Below, piece after piece: positions 3,829 through 49,493 of a stretch of 64,000 bases of DNA. Where the stretch lies: contig JAFYUM010000042.1 of NCBI GenBank assembly GCA_017558505.1, positions 1 through 64,000 on the forward strand. Direction: 5' to 3'. The stretch's first letter is position 1. Each line of letters opens with the position of its first letter. Both the position numbers and the translations under genes were made by a program. Below the pieces are notes generated by a model. It saw only the letters and a program-made list of their open reading frames with translations, searched no databases and was not told the DNA's origin. The DNA comes from Ruminococcus sp. Lineage in GTDB: Bacteria > Bacillota > Clostridia > Oscillospirales > Ruminococcaceae.

Positions 3829-4521
3829 TTATTCTTTTCTGGGATCAACGATCTTAACAGCGTCAGCAACTCTGCCGTACTGTCCTTGAGCCTTCTCAAA
3901 TGCAGTATTAGCATCATCGCCTGCCTTGATGAAGTCCATCATCTTGCCGAAGTTAACGAACTTGTAGCCGATGATTTCGTTCTCCTCGTTAAGAGCAAGA
4001 CCTGTTACATAACCGTCTGTCATTTCGAGGTAACGGGGGCCCTTTGCGAGAGTACCGTACATTGTACCAACCTGTGAACGGAGACCCTTACCGAGGTCCT
4101 CAAGACCAGCACCTACAACAAGACCGCCCTCAGAGAATGCAGACTGTGAACGACCGTAAACGATCTGAAGGAAGAGCTCTCTCATAGCTGTATTGATAGC
4201 ATCACAAACGAGGTCTGTGTTAAGAGCCTCAAGGATTGTTCTGCCAGGGAGAATTTCAGATGCCATAGCAGCAGAATGTGTCATACCAGAGCAACCGATA
4301 GTCTCAACGAGAGCTTCCTGGATAACGCCCTCCTTAACGTTGAGAGTGAGCTTGCAGGTACCCTGCTGAGGAGCGCACCAGCCGATTCCGTGTGTAAAGC
4401 CGGAAATGTCCTTGATTTCCTTAGCCTTTACCCACTTAGCCTCTTCGGGGATAGGAGCTGCACCGTGAGCAACGCCCTGTGCGATAGGGCACATTGTTTC
4501 AACTTCGTGAGAATAAATCAT
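3829..4521 (-). CDS. NifU/IscU-like iron-sulfur cluster scaffold protein
   Basis: Predicted scaffold of the IscU/NifU N-terminal fold (230 aa), the constant partner of GGGtGRT proteins. Cysteines suited to cluster binding occur as GWCAPQQGTC near residue 48 and as VETIGCSGMTHSAA near 73, the latter resembling the scaffold-type GCG/GCxxS loop. I chose the ATG at 4521 rather than the longer reading from 4587 because AAGGAGT precedes it by 7 nt and homologous proteins begin with this MIYSHEVE-like segment. First gene of a two-gene operon, promoter at 4627-4655 with a leader of about 98 nt. The clusters' client is unknown. Confidence 0.8.
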   Translation of the reverse strand: MIYSHEVETMCPIAQGVAHGAAPIPEEAKWVKAKEIKDISGFTHGIGWCAPQQGTCKLTLNVKEGVIQEALVETIGCSGMTHSAAMASEILPGRTILEALNTDLVCDAINTAMRELFLQIVYGRSQSAFSEGGLVVGAGLEDLGKGLRSQVGTMYGTLAKGPRYLEMTDGYVTGLALNEENEIIGYKFVNFGKMMDFIKAGDDANTAFEKAQGQYGRVADAVKIVDPRKE

Positions 4522-4626
4522 TTTTAATACTCCTTTCGGGAATTTAGCGATTGACAACTTTAAGCTATCAACGCAATATCGGGGCAAACGCGGGAATTAT
4601 CCCTTGTCCGTCCCACATACAATAAT

Positions 4627-4655
4627 ATTATACTACATTTTGAAAATTTAATCAA
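4627..4655 (-). promoter_or_regulatory. Promoter of the Fe-S scaffold/GGGtGRT operon
   Basis: Minus-strand TTGATT (4650-4655), 17 bp, TATAAT (4627-4632). The leader to the ATG at 4521 is about 98 nt and contains a small GGGATAATTCCC palindrome. Confidence 0.65.
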
Positions 4656-4703
4656 GGGCTTTTGACAAAAGAATATCAATATAGCGTTAGCACGCCATAA
4701 CAA

Positions 4704-5372
4704 TCAATAACCCAGTTCCTCACCCACAAGAATAACCTTAATGCGGTTTTTATGTCTTTGCTGTGCGGAAATCAGGTAATTGCAGCAAATTCTGCCGTCA
4801 CCCTTGCAGCCGTCAGCCATTTCGTGGTCAGCCTTACCGAGAGAAATGCACTCCCCTGTTTCCGCACAGGGAGTCTTACAGCTCAGACGGACGCAATTCG
4901 GAGGTGCGGCTTCTGTTTTAACTCGGATTTCTGCCTCATTCAAATCCCTTACAATTTTGTTATAACCCGCGATTATAATAACAGATTTTGGACCAAAAGC
5001 AATAGCGGCAATTCTGTTGCTGTTGCCGTCCACGTTATAAAGCACGCCGTCCTCCGTAACCGCATTTGTGCTTGAAATGTAAACATCGGCAAAAAATGCC
5101 TTTCTGTAAAGTTCGGGAACTTCTTCGGGGGCAACCTTTGAACGGTCAAGATAGTTATACTTGTCCGACTGGATAAGCGTTCTTATACCGCATTCCTCCA
5201 TAGAAACTGTGCCGCCGTGAGTAATAACATCTCCCTCATTGAGAAGATTTTCCACAATTTCTTTAACATCTGCTGCTGTAGGTGCATAGTAGAACTCCAT
5301 ATTATTTTTACGGAGATTTTCACCTGTTTTCATTATCCTTTTTTCAATAATTGCTTTTTTATTAGCGTCCAT
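4704..5372 (-). CDS. LUD-domain protein (LutC/YkgG-like)
   Basis: Lactate-utilisation (LUD, DUF162) domain protein of about 222 aa. The fold is recognisable from the DVITHGGTVSMEECGI segment (about 48-63), the SSTNAVTEDGVLYNVDG segment (about 104-120) and the IAFGPKSVIIIAGYNKIV segment (about 126-143); the C-terminus carries a cysteine-rich tail (CKTPCAETGEC and CKGDGRICC) that could bind metal. In the family LutC acts with Fe-S proteins LutA and LutB on lactate, but neither is present here, so a stand-alone redox or electron-bifurcation accessory role is as likely. The start at the second ATG (5372) is preferred because GGAG lies 8 nt upstream of it but only 2 nt from the first ATG. Divergent from the MATE gene. 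Confidence 0.75.
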   Translation of the reverse strand: MDANKKAIIEKRIMKTGENLRKNNMEFYYAPTAADVKEIVENLLNEGDVITHGGTVSMEECGIRTLIQSDKYNYLDRSKVAPEEVPELYRKAFFADVYISSTNAVTEDGVLYNVDGNSNRIAAIAFGPKSVIIIAGYNKIVRDLNEAEIRVKTEAAPPNCVRLSCKTPCAETGECISLGKADHEMADGCKGDGRICCNYLISAQQRHKNRIKVILVGEELGY

Positions 5373-5406
5373 AAACATTTCTCCTTTTTTAAAATTTGTA
5401 TACTCT

Positions 5407-5432
5407 CCACACTTCCGCTTTATTTTGTGTGG
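5407..5432. promoter_or_regulatory. Inverted repeat in the LUD gene leader
   Basis: CCACAC and GTGTGG arms separated by 14 nt lie between the LUD promoter and its start codon. It could be a hairpin or an operator; no regulator is identified. Confidence 0.35.
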
Positions 5433-5455
5433 TATTTTAAAAACGTATTATACAT

Positions 5456-5484
5456 ATTATACCCCTGCAAAAAACAAATGTCAA
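5456..5484 (-). promoter_or_regulatory. LUD gene promoter
   Basis: Minus-strand TTGACA (5479-5484), 17 bp, TATAAT (5456-5461). It is back-to-back with the MATE promoter, the two -35 boxes being 8 bp apart. Confidence 0.75.
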
Positions 5485-5492
5485 TATTACAC

Positions 5493-5521
5493 TTGAAAAA
5501 AAATGAAATAGGGTGTATAAT
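5493..5521 (+). promoter_or_regulatory. MATE-nudC operon promoter
   Basis: TTGAAA (5493-5498), 17 bp, TATAAT (5516-5521), 35 nt upstream of the MATE start codon. Confidence 0.7.
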
Positions 5522-5555
5522 TATGTAGTTATAATATTGAAAAGAAGGTTTTAAA

Positions 5556-6944
5556 ATGAAAGAAAACGAAAAAAACAACTCATTGGGTACAGCACCTGTG
5601 CCTAAACTTATGGCGGGCTTTGCGATACCCAGTATTATCGGCATGCTTGTAAGTGCACTGTACAATATTGTTGACCAGTTCTTCATCGGTCAGGGTGTAG
5701 GCACAGACGGAAATGCTGCTACAAATATAGCTTTCCCATTCTCCACATTATGTATAGCCGCTGCACTTCTGTTAGGCATCGGCGGTGCCTCCTGCTTCAA
5801 CCTCACAATGGGCAAAGGCGACTCAAAACGTGCCGCATATTTCGCAGGAAATGCATTGACAATGCTGGCAGGTATCGGTATTGTTATAGCCGCATTTACA
5901 CTTGCCTTCCTCACTCCCTTGCTTAAGCTTTTTGGTTCCCCAGATGACATACTCCCCTACGCAAAAGACTATGTTGCAGTATCCGCCATAGGCTTTCCGT
6001 TCCTTATTCTTTCAACAGGCGGCGGACATATCGTCCGTGCCGACGGAAGCCCATCCATGACAATGATTCTCAACCTTACCGGAGCCGTTATAAATACAAT
6101 TCTTGACGCATTGTTTGTACTCCAGTTCAACTGGGGTATGAAAGGCGCAGCCGCCGCAACCGTAATCGGTCAGTTTGTTTCAGCACTTATGGTAATTTTC
6201 TACATCCGCAGGTTCAAGACAGTAAAGCTTACCGCAAAACACTTTGTTCCACAGCTCAAGGTCATATCAAGAGTCTGTGCAATCGGTATGGCGTCCTGCT
6301 TTAATCAGCTGGCTATTGCTCTTGTGCAGGTTGTACTCAACAACTCCCTTAAATACTACGGCAGTCTTTCCATATATGGCGAGAAAGAACCCCTTGCAGT
6401 TGCTGGTATCGTAATGAAGGTGAATATGATTGTATTTTCTATCGTAATCGGTCTTTCACAGGGAGCACAGCCTATCCAGAGCTTTAATTACGGTGCAAAA
6501 AATTACAAGCGTGTTAAATCATCATACATATACGCATTGGCAATCGGCGGTGGAATTTCCATAGTAGCATTTATCCTTTTCCAGCTTATTCCAAAGCAGA
6601 TTTTAGGACTTTTCGGAACAGGCACAGATACATATTTTGAATTCGGCTGTCAGTTTTTCAGAACATTCCTGTTCTTCACATGGCTTAATTGTATTCAGCC
6701 TATCTCCTCCACCTTCTTCACATCAATCGGAAAACCAATCAAAGGCGTTTTCCTTTCACTTACACGACAGATTATATTCTTCATTCCCGTACTGCTTGTA
6801 TTGCCGAAATTTATGGGAATTGACGGAATACTCTACACAGGACCTATCTGTGATCTTCTTTCAGGCATAGTCGCAGTTCTTATGACGGCATATGAATTCA
6901 GAGTAATGACAAAACTCTCCAACCAGAATGAGGTAACTTCATGA
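5556..6944 (+). CDS. MATE family efflux transporter
   Basis: Twelve-helix multidrug and toxin extrusion protein (462 aa, normal length), expected to export cationic compounds in exchange for Na+ or H+. The N-terminal half has the typical MLVSALYNIVDQFFIGQGVG segment after helix 1 and the RADGSPSMTM loop near residue 160; the second half repeats the pattern (IGLSQGAQPIQSFNYGAKN near 300). It belongs to the MepA/DinF-like branch common in Clostridia. Translation starts at ATG 5556 behind AGAAGG. The stop codon overlaps the nudC start (ATGA), so the two are translationally coupled. Substrate cannot be told from sequence. Confidence 0.9.
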   Translation: MKENEKNNSLGTAPVPKLMAGFAIPSIIGMLVSALYNIVDQFFIGQGVGTDGNAATNIAFPFSTLCIAAALLLGIGGASCFNLTMGKGDSKRAAYFAGNALTMLAGIGIVIAAFTLAFLTPLLKLFGSPDDILPYAKDYVAVSAIGFPFLILSTGGGHIVRADGSPSMTMILNLTGAVINTILDALFVLQFNWGMKGAAAATVIGQFVSALMVIFYIRRFKTVKLTAKHFVPQLKVISRVCAIGMASCFNQLAIALVQVVLNNSLKYYGSLSIYGEKEPLAVAGIVMKVNMIVFSIVIGLSQGAQPIQSFNYGAKNYKRVKSSYIYALAIGGGISIVAFILFQLIPKQILGLFGTGTDTYFEFGCQFFRTFLFFTWLNCIQPISSTFFTSIGKPIKGVFLSLTRQIIFFIPVLLVLPKFMGIDGILYTGPICDLLSGIVAVLMTAYEFRVMTKLSNQNEVTS

Positions 6945-39927: not shown

Positions 39928-40055
39928 ATGATTGTAAGGTTGAAACGGCCATTCAACAACCAAAGGCATTTTCAAGGGATAATAATCAAGTGTATCATTA
40001 ACCAACACTATGCTTGTATAGGCATAGGCAAATCATTTTGAAGGGAAAATTAATT

Positions 40056-43000
40056 ATGAGGAATTCGATGATGAAAAACAGAATTGCGGCAATTGCTGCA
40101 TCCGCAGTTGTAAGCGTTTCTACTGTAAGCGGCACATTCAACAGCTTTGTTGCTCCAATGACAAGAAATATCTCAATTGCATATGCAGCAGAGGCAAGCG
40201 TGAAAATCAATGCCGCTGTAGGCTATGCAGAGGGTATGTACGCTACATGGGGCGCTGTTTCAGGTGCTTCCGGCTACAACGTTTATGTTGACGGTACTCA
40301 GATTGATTCTGAGCTTATCAGACAGTACAGCGGCTATATGAGAGCTGACGCTGTTGGTCTTAAGGCAGGCAGTCACACAATCAAGGTTGTTCCAATTATC
40401 GGCGGCTCACCTGACACATCAAAGGCTGCTGAGGCTACTGCAAGCGTTTATGCTCACGACAGAAGCGGCTTCGCTTTCAGCAACGGCAAGGCAATGGGTG
40501 CTTACAACGGTGACGGTACTCTTAAATCAGGTGCTGTTGTGGTTTATGTGACAAATGCAACAAAGGATTCAGTTTCCGCTAACATCGGCGGCACAACTGC
40601 TAAAGGTTTCCAGAATATTCTCAATGCCGCACAGGACAGCTCAACACCTGTATGTATCAGAGTTATCGGTAACATAACAGATCCCTCAACTCTTGATAAG
40701 GGCGATCTCCTTATTGATAAGACAAAGTGCGGTATTACAATTCAGGGTATCGGCTCAGATGCAACTCTCAACGGCTTCGGAATAAGAGTTAAAGGCTCAT
40801 CTGATGTTGAAATCTGCAACCTCGGTCTTATGAACTGTGACAGCTCAGAGGGCGATGCAGTCGGACTCCAGCAGGATAATGACCACGTATGGGTTCACAA
40901 TAACGATTTCTTCTATGGCGATCCGGGTTCAGATGCCGATCAGGTTAAGGGCGACGGTGCTCTTGATACTAAAAAATCCCAGTATGTAACACATTCCTAC
41001 AATCACTTCTGGGACTGCGGAAAAACTCACCTCAACGGAAACGGCGACACAACCCTCAACTATATTACATACCACCACAACTGGTATGACCATTCAGATT
41101 CCCGTCATCCCCTTGTACGTGTATCATCTGCGGTACATTGCTACAACAACTACTATGACGGCGTTGCAAAATACGGTATGATTGCAAGACTTAGCAGCTC
41201 TGTATTTGCAGAATCCAATTACTTCAAGGACACAAATAACCCTATTCTTATCTCTCAGCAGGGTACAGATATTGCTGACGGTGACCCAATTGCATCAGAT
41301 GCAGGCGGTATGATTAAATCCTACGGCAATATCTATGACAATACTGAAAAGCCCATTACTCATGCAGATTCTGCTACAGATTTCGACTGCTACGAGGCTT
41401 CAGCAGCATCAGAGGCTGTTCCCTCATCATATAAGACAAAGAAGGGCGGCACAAGCTACTCAAACTTCGATACAAGCAGCTCAATGTACAGCTATTCTGC
41501 TGATTCTGCCGCTGATGTTCCCTCTATCGTAATGGCAAAGGCAGGCCGTGTTGACGGCGGTGACTTTGACTGGGATTTCAGCGACCCATCAGAGGACAGA
41601 AATTATGATGTAATCTCAGGACTTAATTCTGCACTTGACTCCTATAAGGATTCAATCGTTGCTATTGGCTCAGGCTTCAAGGATGATATATCAAATCCTC
41701 CCACATCAACTCCTGTATCCACAGTCAAGCCCTCAACGTCTTCAACAACAACGAAGGCGTCCTCTCAGACCACGCCTGCACAGACAAATCCCACAACTCC
41801 TTCTGTGTCAGGCGGTCAGGTCCACAACTTTACAGCTAACGGACTTAACAGCTCATTCTTCACAATTTCAGGCAACCTTTCTACAAGTAAGGGAACTGTT
41901 ACATATGACGGCAAGACTCTTACCCAGTGTCTGAAAATGGAATCTGCTACAAGCATTTCCTTCAATGCAGGTTCAGCTGGAAAGCTTACCCTTGTTTTCG
42001 TTGAACCCTCCGCTACTGTAAAGGTTGACGGCACAAAATACACAGCAAGCAATGGTATTGTATCTGTTGACCTTAGTGCAGGTGAACATACAATTACTAA
42101 GGGCGATTCAACAAATCTTTTCTATATGGTATTCGGCGTTTCAGCAGGCTCATCCTCGACAACCGCAAGTCCCTCACAGCCTGTTCAGACTACTGTAACC
42201 ACAACTAAAAACAACACATCCTCTTCTACAACTGTTGTAAATCCTCCTGCATCCAGTTCATCAGGAATTGATAAAATTGTAGACGATGCAATCTATTGCT
42301 CACCTAACGGCACAGGCTCTGGTACAAAGGATTCCCCCACAGATGTTCTTTCAGCTATAAAGAACATCAAGGCAGGCGGTACTATATATCTTCTTGACGG
42401 TACATACAAATACGATTCCAGTATAATTATAGATTCTTCAAATAACGGCTCTGCAAACGCTTACAAGACAATTCAGGCTTATCCCGGCAACAGCGGAAAA
42501 GTTGTATTCGACTTCTCTGCACAGGCAGTAAGCGGCTCTAACCGCGGATTTGTCCTTGACGGTGATTACTGGCAGTTTGTAAACTTTGAGATTACCAAGG
42601 CTGGAGATAATGGTATGCTCCTTTCGGGTAACTACAACAGAATTGTAGAAATGGTATTCAACGACAATCAGGACACAGGATTACAGCTTTCACGTTATGA
42701 TACAAATGCTTCTACCGTTGCACAGTGGCCATCATACAATCTGGTTCTCAATTGCACATCAAAGAATAACTGTGATGATGCTACTATGGAAAATGCCGAC
42801 GGATTTGCTGCTAAGCTTACCTGTGGTGAGGGTAATGTATTTGACGGCTGCATGGCTTATAACAACTCTGATGACGGTTGGGATTTATATGCTAAAACAG
42901 AAACAGGCCCTATCGGTGTTGTAACTATCAAAAATAGTATTGCTTTCAGAAATGGATTTACTGAATTCGGCGAGGGCTATGGAGACTGCGACGGTAACGG

Positions 43001-43907
43001 CTTCAAACTTGGCGGTGCAGGCGTTGGTACTGCACATATCGTTGAAAACTGTCTTGCATTTGAAAATCTCAACTGCGGATTTACTGACAATAATAACCCC
43101 AAGCTGGGCAGCCTTAAAAATTGTACCGCTTACAATAACGGTGTAGGCGGCAACGGAAAGGCTAACTATATGGTATATCGCTGCTCATCATCAACAAAGC
43201 TTGATAACCTTATGTCATTCAACGACACAAGCAAGGTTTCAGACACAGGTGCAGCAGGTATAAAGATATCCAACGATAAATTTGTGGGCGTTATGAATAA
43301 TTCCGTCTACTACAATGGCAGCTATTACTTCGCAAAGAGTAATGTTTCCATGACAAACGGTGCAAAAATTGGTGATGTGGTTACAGTTCAGGCTTCTGAT
43401 TTCATCTCATTTTCAGTTCCGAAAATGGGTACGGACTTCCACACCGCATGGAGAGCTTCTGACGGTTCAATTAAGACAGGCAATTTTGCCGAATCCACAG
43501 GTACTTACGCAGCTCTCGGATATCACCTTGACGGAAAGGGTACTGCATCTGCTCTTACAGGACAGACAGGAGCAGCTGCATCTCAGCATACTACATCTAC
43601 TACACAGCCCACAACTGCTCCTACATCAGCACCTACAACAGTTCCCACAACTGTTCCTACAACAACTCCCGTAACTCCCTCAACAGGTCTTGCAGGTGAT
43701 GCAAACTGCGACGGCACGGTATCAATTGCTGATGCAGCTGCAATCCTCCAGTTCCTTGGAAATAATGATAAATATTCACTTTCTGAAAAAGGCGAAGCAA
43801 ATGCAGATGTATTCAACAGGGGTGACGGTCTTACAGTTGCAGATGCACTTTCAATTCAGAAATATGATGCAGGAATGATAAGTACACTTCCTGAATCTGT
43901 GCAGTAA
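40056..43907 (+). CDS. Cellulosomal bifunctional pectate lyase (PL1 + PL9) with dockerin
   Basis: Secreted enzyme of 1283 aa that cleaves polygalacturonate by beta-elimination with two catalytic modules. Order: signal peptide (to about 48), fibronectin III-like domain (about 40-120), PL1 lyase (about 135-520) with NDFFYGDPG and the catalytic/Ca region HSYNHFWDCGKTH near 313 and DSRHPLVRV near 347, Thr/Ser linker, a beta-sandwich CBM-like domain (about 588-695), second linker, PL9 lyase (about 738-1160) with parallel-beta-helix NGFKLGG near 981 holding the catalytic Lys, Thr/Pro linker, dockerin (about 1210-1283; GDANCDGTVSIADA and NRGDGLTVADALS). Start: ATG 40056, behind AAGGG; ATG 40071 with AGGA at 8 nt is an alternative. 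The dockerin is the same type as that of the GH9 enzyme. Confidence 0.93.
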   Translation: MRNSMMKNRIAAIAASAVVSVSTVSGTFNSFVAPMTRNISIAYAAEASVKINAAVGYAEGMYATWGAVSGASGYNVYVDGTQIDSELIRQYSGYMRADAVGLKAGSHTIKVVPIIGGSPDTSKAAEATASVYAHDRSGFAFSNGKAMGAYNGDGTLKSGAVVVYVTNATKDSVSANIGGTTAKGFQNILNAAQDSSTPVCIRVIGNITDPSTLDKGDLLIDKTKCGITIQGIGSDATLNGFGIRVKGSSDVEICNLGLMNCDSSEGDAVGLQQDNDHVWVHNNDFFYGDPGSDADQVKGDGALDTKKSQYVTHSYNHFWDCGKTHLNGNGDTTLNYITYHHNWYDHSDSRHPLVRVSSAVHCYNNYYDGVAKYGMIARLSSSVFAESNYFKDTNNPILISQQGTDIADGDPIASDAGGMIKSYGNIYDNTEKPITHADSATDFDCYEASAASEAVPSSYKTKKGGTSYSNFDTSSSMYSYSADSAADVPSIVMAKAGRVDGGDFDWDFSDPSEDRNYDVISGLNSALDSYKDSIVAIGSGFKDDISNPPTSTPVSTVKPSTSSTTTKASSQTTPAQTNPTTPSVSGGQVHNFTANGLNSSFFTISGNLSTSKGTVTYDGKTLTQCLKMESATSISFNAGSAGKLTLVFVEPSATVKVDGTKYTASNGIVSVDLSAGEHTITKGDSTNLFYMVFGVSAGSSSTTASPSQPVQTTVTTTKNNTSSSTTVVNPPASSSSGIDKIVDDAIYCSPNGTGSGTKDSPTDVLSAIKNIKAGGTIYLLDGTYKYDSSIIIDSSNNGSANAYKTIQAYPGNSGKVVFDFSAQAVSGSNRGFVLDGDYWQFVNFEITKAGDNGMLLSGNYNRIVEMVFNDNQDTGLQLSRYDTNASTVAQWPSYNLVLNCTSKNNCDDATMENADGFAAKLTCGEGNVFDGCMAYNNSDDGWDLYAKTETGPIGVVTIKNSIAFRNGFTEFGEGYGDCDGNGFKLGGAGVGTAHIVENCLAFENLNCGFTDNNNPKLGSLKNCTAYNNGVGGNGKANYMVYRCSSSTKLDNLMSFNDTSKVSDTGAAGIKISNDKFVGVMNNSVYYNGSYYFAKSNVSMTNGAKIGDVVTVQASDFISFSVPKMGTDFHTAWRASDGSIKTGNFAESTGTYAALGYHLDGKGTASALTGQTGAAASQHTTSTTQPTTAPTSAPTTVPTTVPTTTPVTPSTGLAGDANCDGTVSIADAAAILQFLGNNDKYSLSEKGEANADVFNRGDGLTVADALSIQKYDAGMISTLPESVQ

Positions 43908-44053: not shown

Positions 44054-45631
44054 CTAAAACAATGGTGCTACAAATTTCAGAATCTGCCCCGAAATTTTAT
44101 AGAAAACCTTTTCTTTTTTTATGGTATCAAGCGTCACTTCACGGCATTTTTCAAGAGTTGCAGAAAAATCCGCTTCAATATCAGAAATGCAAGATGTCCT
44201 GTACATATACGCCGCACATTCAAAATGATGGTATAAACTACGATAATCAAGATTTATCGTTCCCACCACAGCCTTTTCATCATCACTTACAAAAATCTTT
44301 GAATGAACAAATCCAGGAGTATATTCATAGAGCTTTACACCTGCCTTTGTAAGCTCCTTATAATGAGTCTTTGCAAGGGCAAATGCCATTTTCTTATCAG
44401 GTATACCGGGAAGAATTATTTTAACATCAATCCCCCTCTGTGCCGCATATTTTATTGCATTTTCCATTTTACCGTCAAGTATGAGATATGGTGTCATAAT
44501 ATGAACATAGCTTGTAGCACGGTTCAGGATATCAATATACACATTCTCCCCTACTTTATCATCATCAAGAGGGCAATCCGCATACGGCATTACAAATCCG
44601 CTGCATTTCAGAAATTCTACAGGTTCAAGCCATTTTTCCCACTCTGGCTCTTTTTCCGAAATATTCCACATCTGCAAAAACATAAGTGTAAAGCTGCGTA
44701 CAGCCTCGCCCTTCAGCATTACTGCGGAATCCTTCCAATGTCCGAATCTTTCACGACGGTTTATATACTCATCAGCAAAATTAATTCCACCCGTAAATGC
44801 AGTTTTTCCGTCAATTACGAGGATTTTCCTATGGTCACGATAGTTATAATAAGTTGAAAGAAAAGGTGTTACAGGAGCAAATGCCTTGCACTTTATACCA
44901 AGCTCTGCCATCCGCTTGGGGTAATCATGGGTTAAGGTAGACATTTCACACATTCCGTCATACATAACACGGACTTCAACTCCCTGTGCCGCCTTTTCCT
45001 TTAGCTTTTCAAGGATTTTCCCCCACATAAAGCCCTCGGCAATTATGAAATATTCCACAAATATGAATTTTTCGGCTTTATCAAGTTCCTCTAAAACTGC
45101 TGCAAATTTTTCTTCACCGCTTGAATAAAATTCAGTTTCAGTATTGGTATATATAGGAAAACATCCTGTTCGGTTTACATAACGACATAAATCATCCGTT
45201 CCCGAAAAGGTCAGCTGAACGTCCTCCATAACACTCATATCCTGTGGAATTATTGTCTTTGTTTCCTTTATAAGAACATTAACACGCTTTTTGATAGCAA
45301 AATGCCCGAAGTCGGTCTGCGTCAGCAAGAGAAGTATCGTTCCCGGCACAGGAAAAACAAAGAAAATCATCATCCACGTAAGCTTTGCAGTGGAATCCAT
45401 TTCACAGTTGAAAAGCCATATAATCGCCACAGCTGTAAGTATACCGAAAAATATATGAAAATATGGGCTTGATTCATCAAAGTGAATGTACATTGATGCA
45501 ATAATGAAAATCTGTAAAACGAAAAGCAGCAGAATAATGAATAATCTGCTGAAAATGAGCTTAAAAAAACCTTTTTTCTGTTTCGGTATAAGTCTGAATA
45601 TTCCGTCATCAGGTATTTTTCTTTTAAACAT
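44054..45631 (-). CDS. cls: Cardiolipin synthase (phospholipase D type)
   Basis: 525-aa membrane enzyme that condenses two phosphatidylglycerol molecules to cardiolipin and glycerol. Two or three N-terminal helices (about 24-105) precede two PLD domains with intact HKD motifs: HRKILVIDGKTAFTGG near 260 and HSKIFVSDDEKAVVGTINLD near 440. It starts 8 bases inside the end of the galactokinase-like gene (ATG 45631, GGAG 6 nt upstream), so the two are coupled. The leftward operon is divergent from GH130. Confidence 0.93.
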   Translation of the reverse strand: MFKRKIPDDGIFRLIPKQKKGFFKLIFSRLFIILLLFVLQIFIIASMYIHFDESSPYFHIFFGILTAVAIIWLFNCEMDSTAKLTWMMIFFVFPVPGTILLLLTQTDFGHFAIKKRVNVLIKETKTIIPQDMSVMEDVQLTFSGTDDLCRYVNRTGCFPIYTNTETEFYSSGEEKFAAVLEELDKAEKFIFVEYFIIAEGFMWGKILEKLKEKAAQGVEVRVMYDGMCEMSTLTHDYPKRMAELGIKCKAFAPVTPFLSTYYNYRDHRKILVIDGKTAFTGGINFADEYINRRERFGHWKDSAVMLKGEAVRSFTLMFLQMWNISEKEPEWEKWLEPVEFLKCSGFVMPYADCPLDDDKVGENVYIDILNRATSYVHIMTPYLILDGKMENAIKYAAQRGIDVKIILPGIPDKKMAFALAKTHYKELTKAGVKLYEYTPGFVHSKIFVSDDEKAVVGTINLDYRSLYHHFECAAYMYRTSCISDIEADFSATLEKCREVTLDTIKKEKVFYKISGQILKFVAPLF

Positions 45632-46874
45632 AAAGCTCTCCGGCTGCTCCTTTTCTAAACTTCATAGCCTTTGTACTGCCCTGTCCGAAAATATTATCAA
45701 GGGTTTTAATATAATTGCCAACCATATAATCAGGTACAAATGAAATTACATACCCGCCATGAACTCTCACAGCACCGCTTCCGTTAAGATATCTTCGGCT
45801 AATGGATAACGCAAGTTTAAGTGAAGGCTGCATATTCTGCAGCATTATAGCAAATGATTTTCCGGAGAGATTTACAAGCTCCAGAAATTCATGAATCCTT
45901 CCGCCCTCAACTGCTTCAACTTCAAGAAATACACGTTTATTTTCCTCAAAGAAATAAATGGCACGGTTAACGGCTCTGTCACAGCATTTTTTTCGGATTT
46001 CTGCTATATTATCAAAAAAAGCGTCCTCATCAGCTTCACCAAGATATTCAACACCAATTGCATTTGCAACGGATTTCATATCATAGAGTATTTCCTTATA
46101 AGTGTCGGTGAAATTTTCATTGTTTTCACCAACGTCAACCAGACATACACTGTAACCTGATTTTGAAAAATCAAAATCCAATCTACGAATAACAGGATTG
46201 TGCGGATAATTAAGTTCAAAAGCAGCTATTCCACCTATAGCACATATAAGATAACTCTCAAGTCCGATTTCTTTTTCCATATATTTCTGCTCAACAAAAT
46301 GACCGATTTTTGCGATTTCAATTTCTGAAAGCCTTTTATCAGATGAATTATTGATAATATTTCCGATAAATATCTCAAATGCCACAGATGAAAAAAATCC
46401 ACTTTCCACAGGAATATCTGACATTATGTATGCGTCAAAACCGCTGCATATTATCCCCTTTGCAGCAAATTCAGAAATAATTTCTGCTGTCAGAGCACCA
46501 TATCCGCTGTATTTTTCAGCAATATCTGATAAATCAGACAAATCAATTTCAACGTGCTCAAAATCCTTTGAAAAAATACGTACGACATTTTCATTATGAT
46601 AGGCTACAAATCCAAGTATATCCGGAGTTACAGCAGCTGCCAGTACATTTCCATGCTGTTGTGCAGTGTGATTTCCTCCGATTTCAACTCTCCCGGGGAC
46701 AGAAAAAATGTGTATCTCCTCATGTAAAGGGTACAGCCGTGAAAAATTCTCCGCACAATTGAGATATCTTGCTCTCTGACGCAGAATTTCGCTGTCGGAC
46801 TCACTGTATACCTGCGAAAAAAGTTCGTCCATACCTCCGTTTGATATTTTATTAATAATTTCATAAATAGTCAT
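45624..46874 (-). CDS. Galactokinase-like GHMP protein with degenerate active site
   Basis: 416 aa, full length, clearly derived from the long Firmicute galactokinases (N-terminal extension, PGRVEIGG, HGNVLAAAV, FDFSKSGYSVCLVD). Three functional motifs have decayed. Sugar-binding HTD reads HTA (69-71, Asp to Ala). The ATP loop SGLSSSAA reads SGFFSSVA (158-165). The catalytic GLMDQ reads GLESY (204-208, Asp to Ser at 207). The GGGFAGT motif near 366 reads GGYVISF. Galactose phosphorylation is therefore unlikely; a binding or regulatory role, like yeast Gal3, or simple drift is possible. The gene is intact, so it is probably maintained. First gene of an operon with cls. Confidence 0.85.
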   Translation of the reverse strand: MTIYEIINKISNGGMDELFSQVYSESDSEILRQRARYLNCAENFSRLYPLHEEIHIFSVPGRVEIGGNHTAQQHGNVLAAAVTPDILGFVAYHNENVVRIFSKDFEHVEIDLSDLSDIAEKYSGYGALTAEIISEFAAKGIICSGFDAYIMSDIPVESGFFSSVAFEIFIGNIINNSSDKRLSEIEIAKIGHFVEQKYMEKEIGLESYLICAIGGIAAFELNYPHNPVIRRLDFDFSKSGYSVCLVDVGENNENFTDTYKEILYDMKSVANAIGVEYLGEADEDAFFDNIAEIRKKCCDRAVNRAIYFFEENKRVFLEVEAVEGGRIHEFLELVNLSGKSFAIMLQNMQPSLKLALSISRRYLNGSGAVRVHGGYVISFVPDYMVGNYIKTLDNIFGQGSTKAMKFRKGAAGELYV

Positions 46875-47031
46875 AAATTATCACCCATTTTTATTATACA
46901 CCTTTTAAATATAAAAATCCATAGTTTTCATTGAACTTTCATTCACAACAATGTTTTTATAAAGTTTATCTATATTATACTGTTAAAATGTGTGCAGTAT
47001 AGATATTTTTTCGGAACTGCATTTTAATAGC

Positions 47032-47060
47032 TTGACTTTAGCAAAAAAATAATGTATACT
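47032..47060 (+). promoter_or_regulatory. GH130 promoter
   Basis: TTGACT (47032-47037), 17 bp, TATACT (47055-47060). Confidence 0.6.
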
Positions 47061-47122
47061 TAAATTATAGTGAAAAACAACAGGATTTAATTGTATTTTA
47101 ATTAATTAAGGTGGTATATATT

Positions 47123-48142
47123 ATGGCTGATATAAAAATTATTGCCCCCCCGCTCCCTGATATGCCCTGGAGCGAAAAACCCGAAGGTTACACCGCACCA
47201 ATGTGGCGACACCCCGAAAATCCGATAATAAAAAGAAATCCCCTTCCTGATGTTGCCCGCATTTTCAACAGTGCTGTTATCCCCTACGAAAATGGATATG
47301 TGGGTGTTTTCAGAGGTGAACAACGTGACGGTATGCCTCACGTATATTTTGGCACAAGTGACAATGCACTTAACTGGAACTTTCAGGAAGAAAAAATTAA
47401 GTTTGTCGATGAGGAGGGAAATCCTTTCCAGCCAATTTATGCCTACGATCCCAGATTAATCAAAGTTGAAGATACTTATTATGCAATCTGGTGTCAGGAT
47501 ATGTACGGTGCAGCTATCGGCATGGCTAAAACAACTGATTTCAAAACATTTACACGAATTGAAAATCCTTTTTTGCCCTACAACCGCAATGCTGTGCTTT
47601 TCCCACGAAAAATAAACGGTAATTTTATAATGCTATCACGTCCCTGTGACAACGGACATACTGCATTTGGCGATATATTTGTAAGCGAAAGCCCTGATAT
47701 GATTTACTGGGGCAAGCACCGCCATGTAATGGGAAAATCCGACAACTGGTGGGAAAGTCTTAAAATCGGTGGCGGTGCAGCACCTATTGAAACAGATAAG
47801 GGGTGGCTGATTTTCTATCATGGAGTAGTCAACACCTGCAACGGTTATGTCTACAGCATAGGTGCGGCAATTCTTGACATCAATGAACCTTCAAGAGTTC
47901 TTCACCGCTGTTCACGCTATGTTCTCGCCCCTGAAGAATGGTACGAGGAGCGTGGTTTTGTCCCCAATGTATGCTTCCCCTGCTGTACTCTGCATGATTC
48001 CGCAACAGGCAGAATTGCACTTTACTACGGCTGCGCAGACAGCTATGTGGGTGTCGCATATACTACTGTCGAAGAAATATACAACTATATTTTAAAGTAC
48101 GACCTCCTTCAGAATGGAGATTCTTCGTTGGGCAAAAGATAA
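47123..48142 (+). CDS. GH130 beta-mannoside phosphorylase
   Basis: 339-aa cytosolic five-bladed beta-propeller enzyme that phosphorolyses beta-1,4-mannosides to mannose 1-phosphate, as known for Ruminococcus albus RaMP enzymes. Family features: RHPENPIIKRNPLPDVARIFNSAV-type N-terminus, GVFRGEQRDG near 74, catalytic Asp in YAYDPRLI near 110 and the AAPIETDKGWLIFYHGV block near 220. The short length favours the mannooligosaccharide phosphorylase subgroup (GH130_2) over the 390-aa mannosylglucose phosphorylases. ATG 47123 has AAGGTGG 9 nt before. Own promoter and terminator. Confidence 0.85.
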   Translation: MADIKIIAPPLPDMPWSEKPEGYTAPMWRHPENPIIKRNPLPDVARIFNSAVIPYENGYVGVFRGEQRDGMPHVYFGTSDNALNWNFQEEKIKFVDEEGNPFQPIYAYDPRLIKVEDTYYAIWCQDMYGAAIGMAKTTDFKTFTRIENPFLPYNRNAVLFPRKINGNFIMLSRPCDNGHTAFGDIFVSESPDMIYWGKHRHVMGKSDNWWESLKIGGGAAPIETDKGWLIFYHGVVNTCNGYVYSIGAAILDINEPSRVLHRCSRYVLAPEEWYEERGFVPNVCFPCCTLHDSATGRIALYYGCADSYVGVAYTTVEEIYNYILKYDLLQNGDSSLGKR

Positions 48143-48419: not shown

Positions 48420-49493
48420 ATGGCAAAAATCAAGGCAGCCGTCATTTTCGGCGGTACGTCACAGGAACACGAATTATCTCTCGCTTCAGCCGCCGAAGTA
48501 ATCCGTAATATCCCTACGGATACCTACGAAGTCATTGCCGTGGGAATTACACGGAAAGGACACTGGCTCTACTTTCCCGGCGATGCTGACGAAATAGCCA
48601 ACGGAACATGGGAAACCAATCCCGACTGCACCTCCGCCATTCTTTCCCCTGATCCTCTCCACAGAGGTATAATAATTATGGAAAACGGCGAAACATCTGT
48701 AAGACGAATAGACGTTGTTCTTTCGCTTTTACAGGGAAAAAAATGTGCCGACGGAACAATACAGGCACTTCTTGAAATGTCAGGGATACCTTATGCAGGC
48801 TGCTCACTCCTGGCCTCCGCTTCGTGTATGGACAAATCCCATACTCATATGATTATGGACGACTACGGAATAAACACTGCACCATGGAAGCTTTTAACCC
48901 AGCGTGATATGAACCGCATTGACGAAAAATGTCTCGAAATCACCGACGCTATCGGTTTTCCCATGGCAGTCAAACCAGCCAACAGCGGATGCAGTGCAGG
49001 CACAAGTACTGCAAATAACTCCGACGAGCTTGTGACGGCAGTTAAACTTGCATTTTCCAACGATAATAAGGTTGTTGTTGAAAGATATATAAAGGGAAGA
49101 AAACTTGAAGTCGCAGTATGGGGATACGACACCCCAACAGCTTCAAACGTAGGGGAAATAATCTCCACCGACGCTGTGTACGATCCCACTGAAGTGCGAA
49201 AGAGTTCAGGTGACGACCTTGTAATTCCTGCTGATTTACCTGCGGAAACCACAAAGCTCGTCCGTGAAACAGCTGTCAGGGCATTCAAGGCAATGAACTG
49301 CAAAGGCTACTCACGAATTGATTTCTTCCTTGCCGAGGACGGCTCACTTCTCCTTAATAAAATAGGTACAGCACCGGGTATGCGTGAAAACAGCGTTTTC
49401 CCGAAACTTATGAAGGAATACGGGTTGGAGTTTTCAGAGGTTATTGATATGCTCCTTGAAGCGGCAATAGAAAATGCTGATAAATGCTATTAA
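48420..49493 (+). CDS. D-alanine-D-alanine ligase paralogue lacking metal ligands
   Basis: 357-aa ATP-grasp protein with the overall sequence of D-Ala-D-Ala ligase: FGGTSQEHELSLASA (10-24), LLASASCMDK (130-139), AVKPANSGCSAGTS (183-196), RIDFFL (299-304). Key parts have changed. The HGxxGEDG loop is QGKKCADG (105-112), GRE is GRK (226-228), and the Mg ligands of NExNT are NKIGT (313-317, Glu to Lys and Asn to Gly). Canonical ligation of two D-alanines is therefore doubtful. The reading frame is intact and the gene heads a cluster with a DUF1934 gene and argS, overlapping the former by its end. A different ligase must serve the cell wall. Confidence 0.85.
   Translation: MAKIKAAVIFGGTSQEHELSLASAAEVIRNIPTDTYEVIAVGITRKGHWLYFPGDADEIANGTWETNPDCTSAILSPDPLHRGIIIMENGETSVRRIDVVLSLLQGKKCADGTIQALLEMSGIPYAGCSLLASASCMDKSHTHMIMDDYGINTAPWKLLTQRDMNRIDEKCLEITDAIGFPMAVKPANSGCSAGTSTANNSDELVTAVKLAFSNDNKVVVERYIKGRKLEVAVWGYDTPTASNVGEIISTDAVYDPTEVRKSSGDDLVIPADLPAETTKLVRETAVRAFKAMNCKGYSRIDFFLAEDGSLLLNKIGTAPGMRENSVFPKLMKEYGLEFSEVIDMLLEAAIENADKCY

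Follow-up and report, generated by a model that had tools for sequence, protein, structure and literature searches.

We found that a Ruminococcus gene at the conserved galactokinase locus of its genus encodes a full-length galactokinase homolog in which the catalytic motifs have been replaced. The gene is located in the window (the whole 64,000-nt stretch of DNA that was analysed); coordinates are listed in Table 1. Open copies that have lost the motifs occur in at least 21 species of the genus. The loss is a repeated one, the degenerate copies are under purifying selection, and the constraint on them is region-specific. On balance, we think that the gene product is a GHMP-fold pseudokinase retained for a non-catalytic role dating back to the ancestral galactokinase (GalK), probably the binding of a partner via its N-terminal helices.

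Table 1. Features of the pseudo-galactokinase locus (numbering of the window)
Feature	Position	Strand	Remarks
cls, cardiolipin synthase	44054..45631	minus	TIGR04265 322 bits, cut-off 290
Overlap of pseudo-galK stop with cls start, ATGTTTAA	45624..45631	minus	8 nt, cls ATG
Pseudo-galactokinase	45624..46874	minus	416 aa, open frame; Pfam, alignment, AF2 model, Foldseek
Codon 207, AGT (Ser) for catalytic Asp of GLMDQ	46254..46256	minus	Alignment
Codons 158-165, SGFFSSVA for SGLSSSAA, ATP loop	46380..46403	minus	Alignment
Codon 71, GCA (Ala) for Asp of HTD, galactose site	46662..46664	minus	Alignment with catalytic homologs
Helical N-terminal extension, codons 1-56	46707..46874	minus	Best-kept constraint among degenerate homologs
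Divergent intergenic region, pseudo-galK / GH130 gene	46875..47134	.	260 bp
GH130 family beta-mannoside phosphorylase gene	47135..48142	plus	ATG start, GTG at 47111 also possible; syntenic partner in genus
D-Ala-D-Ala ligase-like gene (ddl)	48420..49493	plus	Named by the protein's appearance; outer marker of syntenic locus

A preliminary description of the locus, made from the sequence alone, had recognized a full-length galactokinase with its fold markers, three replaced motifs and no stop or frameshift. All of this was borne out: the frame is open for 416 codons, and the replacements are exact in the alignment with genus relatives. The protein matches GalKase_gal_bdg (PF10509, 9.6e-11) and GHMP_kinases_N (PF00288, 2.1e-5) in Pfam. 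The AlphaFold2 (AF2) model has a pLDDT of 89 and a pTM of 0.89, and its top Foldseek match is Lactococcus lactis GalK (1pie, TM 0.74/0.78), so that both the GalK fold and the galactokinase signature region are present (PF10509, Foldseek). TIGR00131 gives 79 bits (cut-off 226.65); catalytic copies of the genus likewise stay below the cut-off at 125 to 154 bits. The galactose-binding Asp of GNHTD/GEHTD, found in 49/49 catalytic homologs, is A71 in the window protein (HTD to HTA). The ATP loop GLSSSAA is absent, with GFFSSVA at residues 159-165 instead, and the catalytic Asp of GLMDQ is absent as well, with S207 in GLESY. The C-terminal HGGGFAGT is cut down to HGGY. The window protein is very probably dead as a catalyst. 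With the catalytic residues gone and purifying selection acting, the latter judged in the window lineage from an indirect omega (dN/dS), it can be regarded from its sequence as a pseudoenzyme in the general sense.

The conserved gene order in the genus is ddl-GH130 facing galK, with cls next in some lineages, and in most species the syntenic galK has its full set of catalytic motifs. The window gene is the ortholog of this catalytic gene and occupies the ancestral locus. It faces the GH130 gene across a shared intergenic region, as previously noted; a promoter scan of this 260-bp region found sites no more numerous than in shuffled sequences. In the nearest relative (G043) the catalytic motifs are kept, and its Cls is 92% identical to that of the window while GalK is only 60% identical. 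Another galK, which is catalytic and 40% identical to the window gene, lies in a galT-galE-galK operon on contig C11 of the window genome. A recent duplication of the Leloir galK was ruled out by the synteny of the window gene with the genus gene and by this identity of only 40%. The earlier term "paralogue" therefore applies within the genome, but the gene is not a side duplicate. Second galK genes with catalytic motifs are present in G000, G085 and G099, and none was found in 18 of the 21 degenerate species, many of whose genomes are incomplete. Among 29 genomes searched, galT_2 was found only in the same three, and galT_1 was found in 0/40 genomes searched. In most species examined galK is thus present and galT undetected. 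Given the rarity of galT, even most catalytic copies at the locus appear to work outside the classical Leloir pathway. Such a catalytic-looking galK at the GH130 locus is seen genus-wide, for example in G018, G035 and G048. At three other loci, L045 (G049), L104 (G123) and L042 (G013), the GH130 gene is gone and the pseudokinase gene persists.

About 80 loci were inspected for motifs, and searches of the genus spanned up to 124 genomes. Most of these are apparently MAGs, with one genome per species, and all comparisons are between species. Open copies without the catalytic set are found in the window genome and in G085, G075, G066 (split over two contig ends), G094, G071, G080, G099, G118, G011, G111, G042, G013, G087, G014, G065, G049, G091, G069, G123 and G122. 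None of these 21 frames has an internal stop. In five species (G065, G049, G091, G069 and G123) in-frame deletion has removed the catalytic helix as well as the ATP loop, leaving about 227 to 262 aa; the G069 copy ends at a contig end. The G087/G014 and G122 copies are shortened in other ways. The G122 copy (L103, 4645-5469; 274 aa) stops after FLPKYLLL and, unlike all others, also lacks the C-terminal end. Open degenerate copies in 21 genomes rule out chance or a sequencing artefact. In an argS tree the degenerate species are spread over several clades with catalytic species between them; several forks are weakly supported. Counted on the printed tree, not by a program, this distribution would correspond to 8 to 10 independent losses, provided that loss is irreversible. 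No copy was detected in 29 of 124 genus genomes, which indicates that the job of the pseudokinase is not essential. A 247-aa truncated model gave only a weak Foldseek match (E about 1e-4, TM 0.3 to 0.4 to GHMP proteins), and zero Pfam matches were obtained with five further degenerate relatives that were scanned. Such genes would therefore probably be annotated as hypothetical proteins. An apparent early stage of decay is seen in G060 (L079, 4462-5754), in which the catalytic Asp is changed to Asn (LMNQ) and HGGGF to HGNGF, the rest being near canonical. Two otherwise intact-looking galK genes carry a single in-frame TAG (L119 in G024, 4435-5736, and G097:C23:2621-3901); motifs were read only in G024. 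These may be ordinary pseudogenes, errors of assembly or cases of recoding.

Selection was measured on pairs in which both members are degenerate and close enough for a reliable dS. Pairwise maximum likelihood (ML) gave omega values of 0.23 for G071-G080 (LRT 100), 0.26 for G099-G118 (LRT 42), 0.16 for the 246-aa truncated pair G049-G091 (LRT 51) and 0.39 for G087-G014 (LRT 24). Omega = 1 was rejected in each of the four pairs. Catalytic galK pairs show 0.05 to 0.11 and neighbouring genes mostly 0.02 to 0.12. It was concluded that the degenerate copies are selected proteins under relaxed constraint and not drifting remnants. The dN/dS check proposed in the preliminary description, run here between related species, is thus well below 1, and these values support its idea of a non-enzymatic job kept by selection. 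In the window lineage the dS of the gene is saturated under ML; the Nei-Gojobori omega is 0.22 to 0.29 (about 0.2-0.3). As dS there is saturated or nearly so, relaxation in this lineage may have been strong and recent. Unique changes give a ratio of 0.67 for the window gene and 0.12 for cls; ratios obtained in this way run too high for every gene. A neutral simulation was run to 200 substitutions, about half as many as the differences that separate the window gene from G043; about six stops were expected, and the probability of no stop was 0.0025. The window gene itself is probably under selection.

The arrangement with cls noted in the preliminary description was confirmed: the neighbour scores as a cardiolipin synthase above the TIGR04265 cut-off, and the 8-nt overlap is present. 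It is the sole cls match in its genome, and Shine-Dalgarno-like GGAG sequences for cls sit within the 3' end of the pseudo-galK coding region. In 12/12 degenerate species with linked cls the gap lies between -8 and +12 nt, five truncated copies having -4 nt, whereas most catalytic copies of cls-linked lineages are separated from cls by 22 to more than 600 nt, G043 being the exception. Translational coupling to cls may help to preserve the reading frame. Taken to its limit, the protein would be useless and the frame kept open only since ribosomes finishing pseudo-galK start cls, so that amino acid replacements and in-frame deletions would be harmless and stops and frameshifts would not. The close spacing agrees with this, as do the in-frame deletions that bring the ORF down to about 230 to 260 aa beside cls. 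We nevertheless consider it unlikely, if worth reckoning with. If only the frame were constrained, omega should be close to 1, but the cls-coupled pairs G049-G091 (truncated) and G087-G014 show 0.16 and 0.39. Furthermore, cls is missing beside or downstream of the pseudokinase gene in nine degenerate species, and two close pairs among these still give 0.23 to 0.26. In G011, G042 and G111, cls is on another contig near argS and the pseudokinase gene is elsewhere. Coupling is therefore not the whole story, since these species lack an adjacent cls and a frame constraint alone would leave omega unlowered. For the same reason the regulation of lipid synthesis through cls, suggested earlier, is possible at this locus and not general in the genus.

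The degenerate genes could also be in slow decay under relaxed selection, with an enzyme that is redundant or unneeded and on its way out and a low omega left over from before the loss. Their omega is 2 to 5 times that of catalytic copies, and G085, the fastest evolving, has 78 replacement and 13 silent unique changes; the 29 genomes without a copy and the two with an in-frame TAG point in the same direction. We regard this as rather improbable. The pairs G071-G080, G099-G118 and G049-G091 share motif losses or deletions and most likely split after the loss, and their omega is still 0.16 to 0.26. Internal stops are lacking in all 21 degenerate frames, and conservation is focused on specific residues. 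Low omega in degenerate pairs, region-specific conservation and the nine degenerate species without adjacent cls together argue against both drift and a mere translational leader for cls.

To define what is kept, 49 catalytic and 19 degenerate sequences were compared. Conservation of R62, N68, H69, T70, D71, G159, S162, S163, G204 and D207 falls from about 100% in the catalytic set to 11-32% in the degenerate set; the sugar- and ATP-contact columns of galactokinases are the ones that lose conservation. D85, G240, Y241, C244, F330, G367, A368, P381 and R407 are 100% conserved in the 19 degenerate homologs, and residues 1-56 of the latter retain 88-89% of the canonical conservation. This N-terminal extension is helical in the AF2 model of the window protein (H3-11, H16-22 and H27-47). 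Pooled omega in the extension is 0.11 in degenerate pairs (0.19 to 0.32 in the rest of the protein) and also 0.11 in catalytic pairs (0.06 to 0.10 in the rest). Within the degenerate pairs replacements are fewer in the extension (Fisher, p = 2.5e-4), and the same test within the catalytic pairs gave p = 0.52. Replacement counts in the extension versus residues 57-235 did not differ significantly between catalytic and degenerate pairs (Fisher, p = 0.38). Synonymous changes are also scarcer in the extension of catalytic pairs (p = 7e-4), and part of the low divergence there may thus not reflect protein constraint. For most related GalKs outside the genus but within the family, the alignment begins at model position 1-20, so the extension predates the catalytic loss.

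In the explanation that we prefer, retention of the pseudokinase for a non-catalytic role, the ancestral enzyme would already have had this second role. The helical extension (residues 1-56), propped by what is left of the beta-scaffold (about 54-93, 236-250 and 365-416), would bind a partner. Once phosphorylation was no longer needed, the active site would have degraded, and some lineages would have deleted the core in frame, with the binding module retained. In cls-linked lineages, including that of the window, tight coupling to cls translation would add a constraint on the frame and provide co-production with Cls, which is one candidate partner. More tentatively, the galactokinases of the genus in general could be bifunctional, the N-terminal extension serving a non-catalytic interaction, perhaps with the lipid/envelope machinery around Cls, and the enzyme half having been lost independently many times. 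If this is true, there is a GalK-derived family reaching down to about 230 aa that annotation does not recognize, and bacteria have their own counterpart of Gal1/Gal3, one that has discarded the ligand sites as well.

The yeast Gal3 protein, a non-enzymatic Gal1 paralog and co-inducer, resembles the genus copies in that activity was lost and a second, non-catalytic role retained. An ancestral bifunctional state of yeast galactokinase is described in PMC3048525 and in PMC7556753. The genus copies differ from Gal3 in losing the ligand sites themselves, in repeated loss mostly without a duplicate and in a core that can be deleted. As an analogy, Gal3 fits the evolutionary route (a bifunctional enzyme, then loss of catalysis) and not ligand sensing. 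A Gal3-like sensor, as put forward in the preliminary description, would bind galactose and/or ATP without phosphorylation and pass a signal on to the second galK or a regulator. The window protein does retain GRVEIGGNHT and some of the serine loop, and its genome has a true galK operon, comparable to yeast Gal1 beside Gal3. We consider such a sensor very improbable, and it is unsupported because the ligand sites are precisely what the family loses. The contact columns are down to 11-32% in the 19 degenerate proteins, contact residues are partly lost in the window protein, truncated members have neither ATP loop nor catalytic helix, and in 18/21 degenerate species no further galK was found. 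It is hardly credible that the protein is still an active kinase, or one of switched activity, whose catalytic residues have moved elsewhere. Full length and a good predicted fold could be cited for this, but the ATP loop, the catalytic Asp and the GGG motif of the C-terminus are changed together, differently in each relative, and the core is deleted in other members.

Compared with the clostridial-type galactokinases of the GHMP superfamily (L. lactis GalK 1pie solved), the window protein has the same fold and a similar length, is orthologous and syntenic with the catalytic copies of the genus, and still scores with the Pfam signatures; it differs by the lost HTD Asp, the broken ATP loop, the lost catalytic Asp and the shortened GGG motif. 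XOL-1 of Caenorhabditis elegans is a fast-diverging regulator with a GHMP fold in which ATP binding was undetected (PMC11349215). It is eukaryotic and not a galactokinase ortholog, and the likeness lies in the GHMP fold, here without a shown sequence relation. A search of open-licence papers found no bacterial GHMP pseudoenzymes; the non-enzymatic GHMP-fold examples met in it (Gal3 and XOL-1) are eukaryotic. Pseudoenzymes and GHMP-fold regulators are already known; the open-licence literature yielded no galactokinase-derived example from bacteria in which the loss recurs and the core is deleted. One bacterial genus here offers a natural series of catalytic enzyme, point-mutated pseudokinase and core-deleted remnant, and the surviving parts map which portion of GalK serves beyond catalysis. 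Genes of Ruminococcus can be wrongly annotated as "galactokinase". Elsewhere in the window, positions 40014-43907 encode a 1297-aa secreted-looking pectate lyase with a CBM77 (both by Pfam) and, by eye, a dockerin-like C-terminus.
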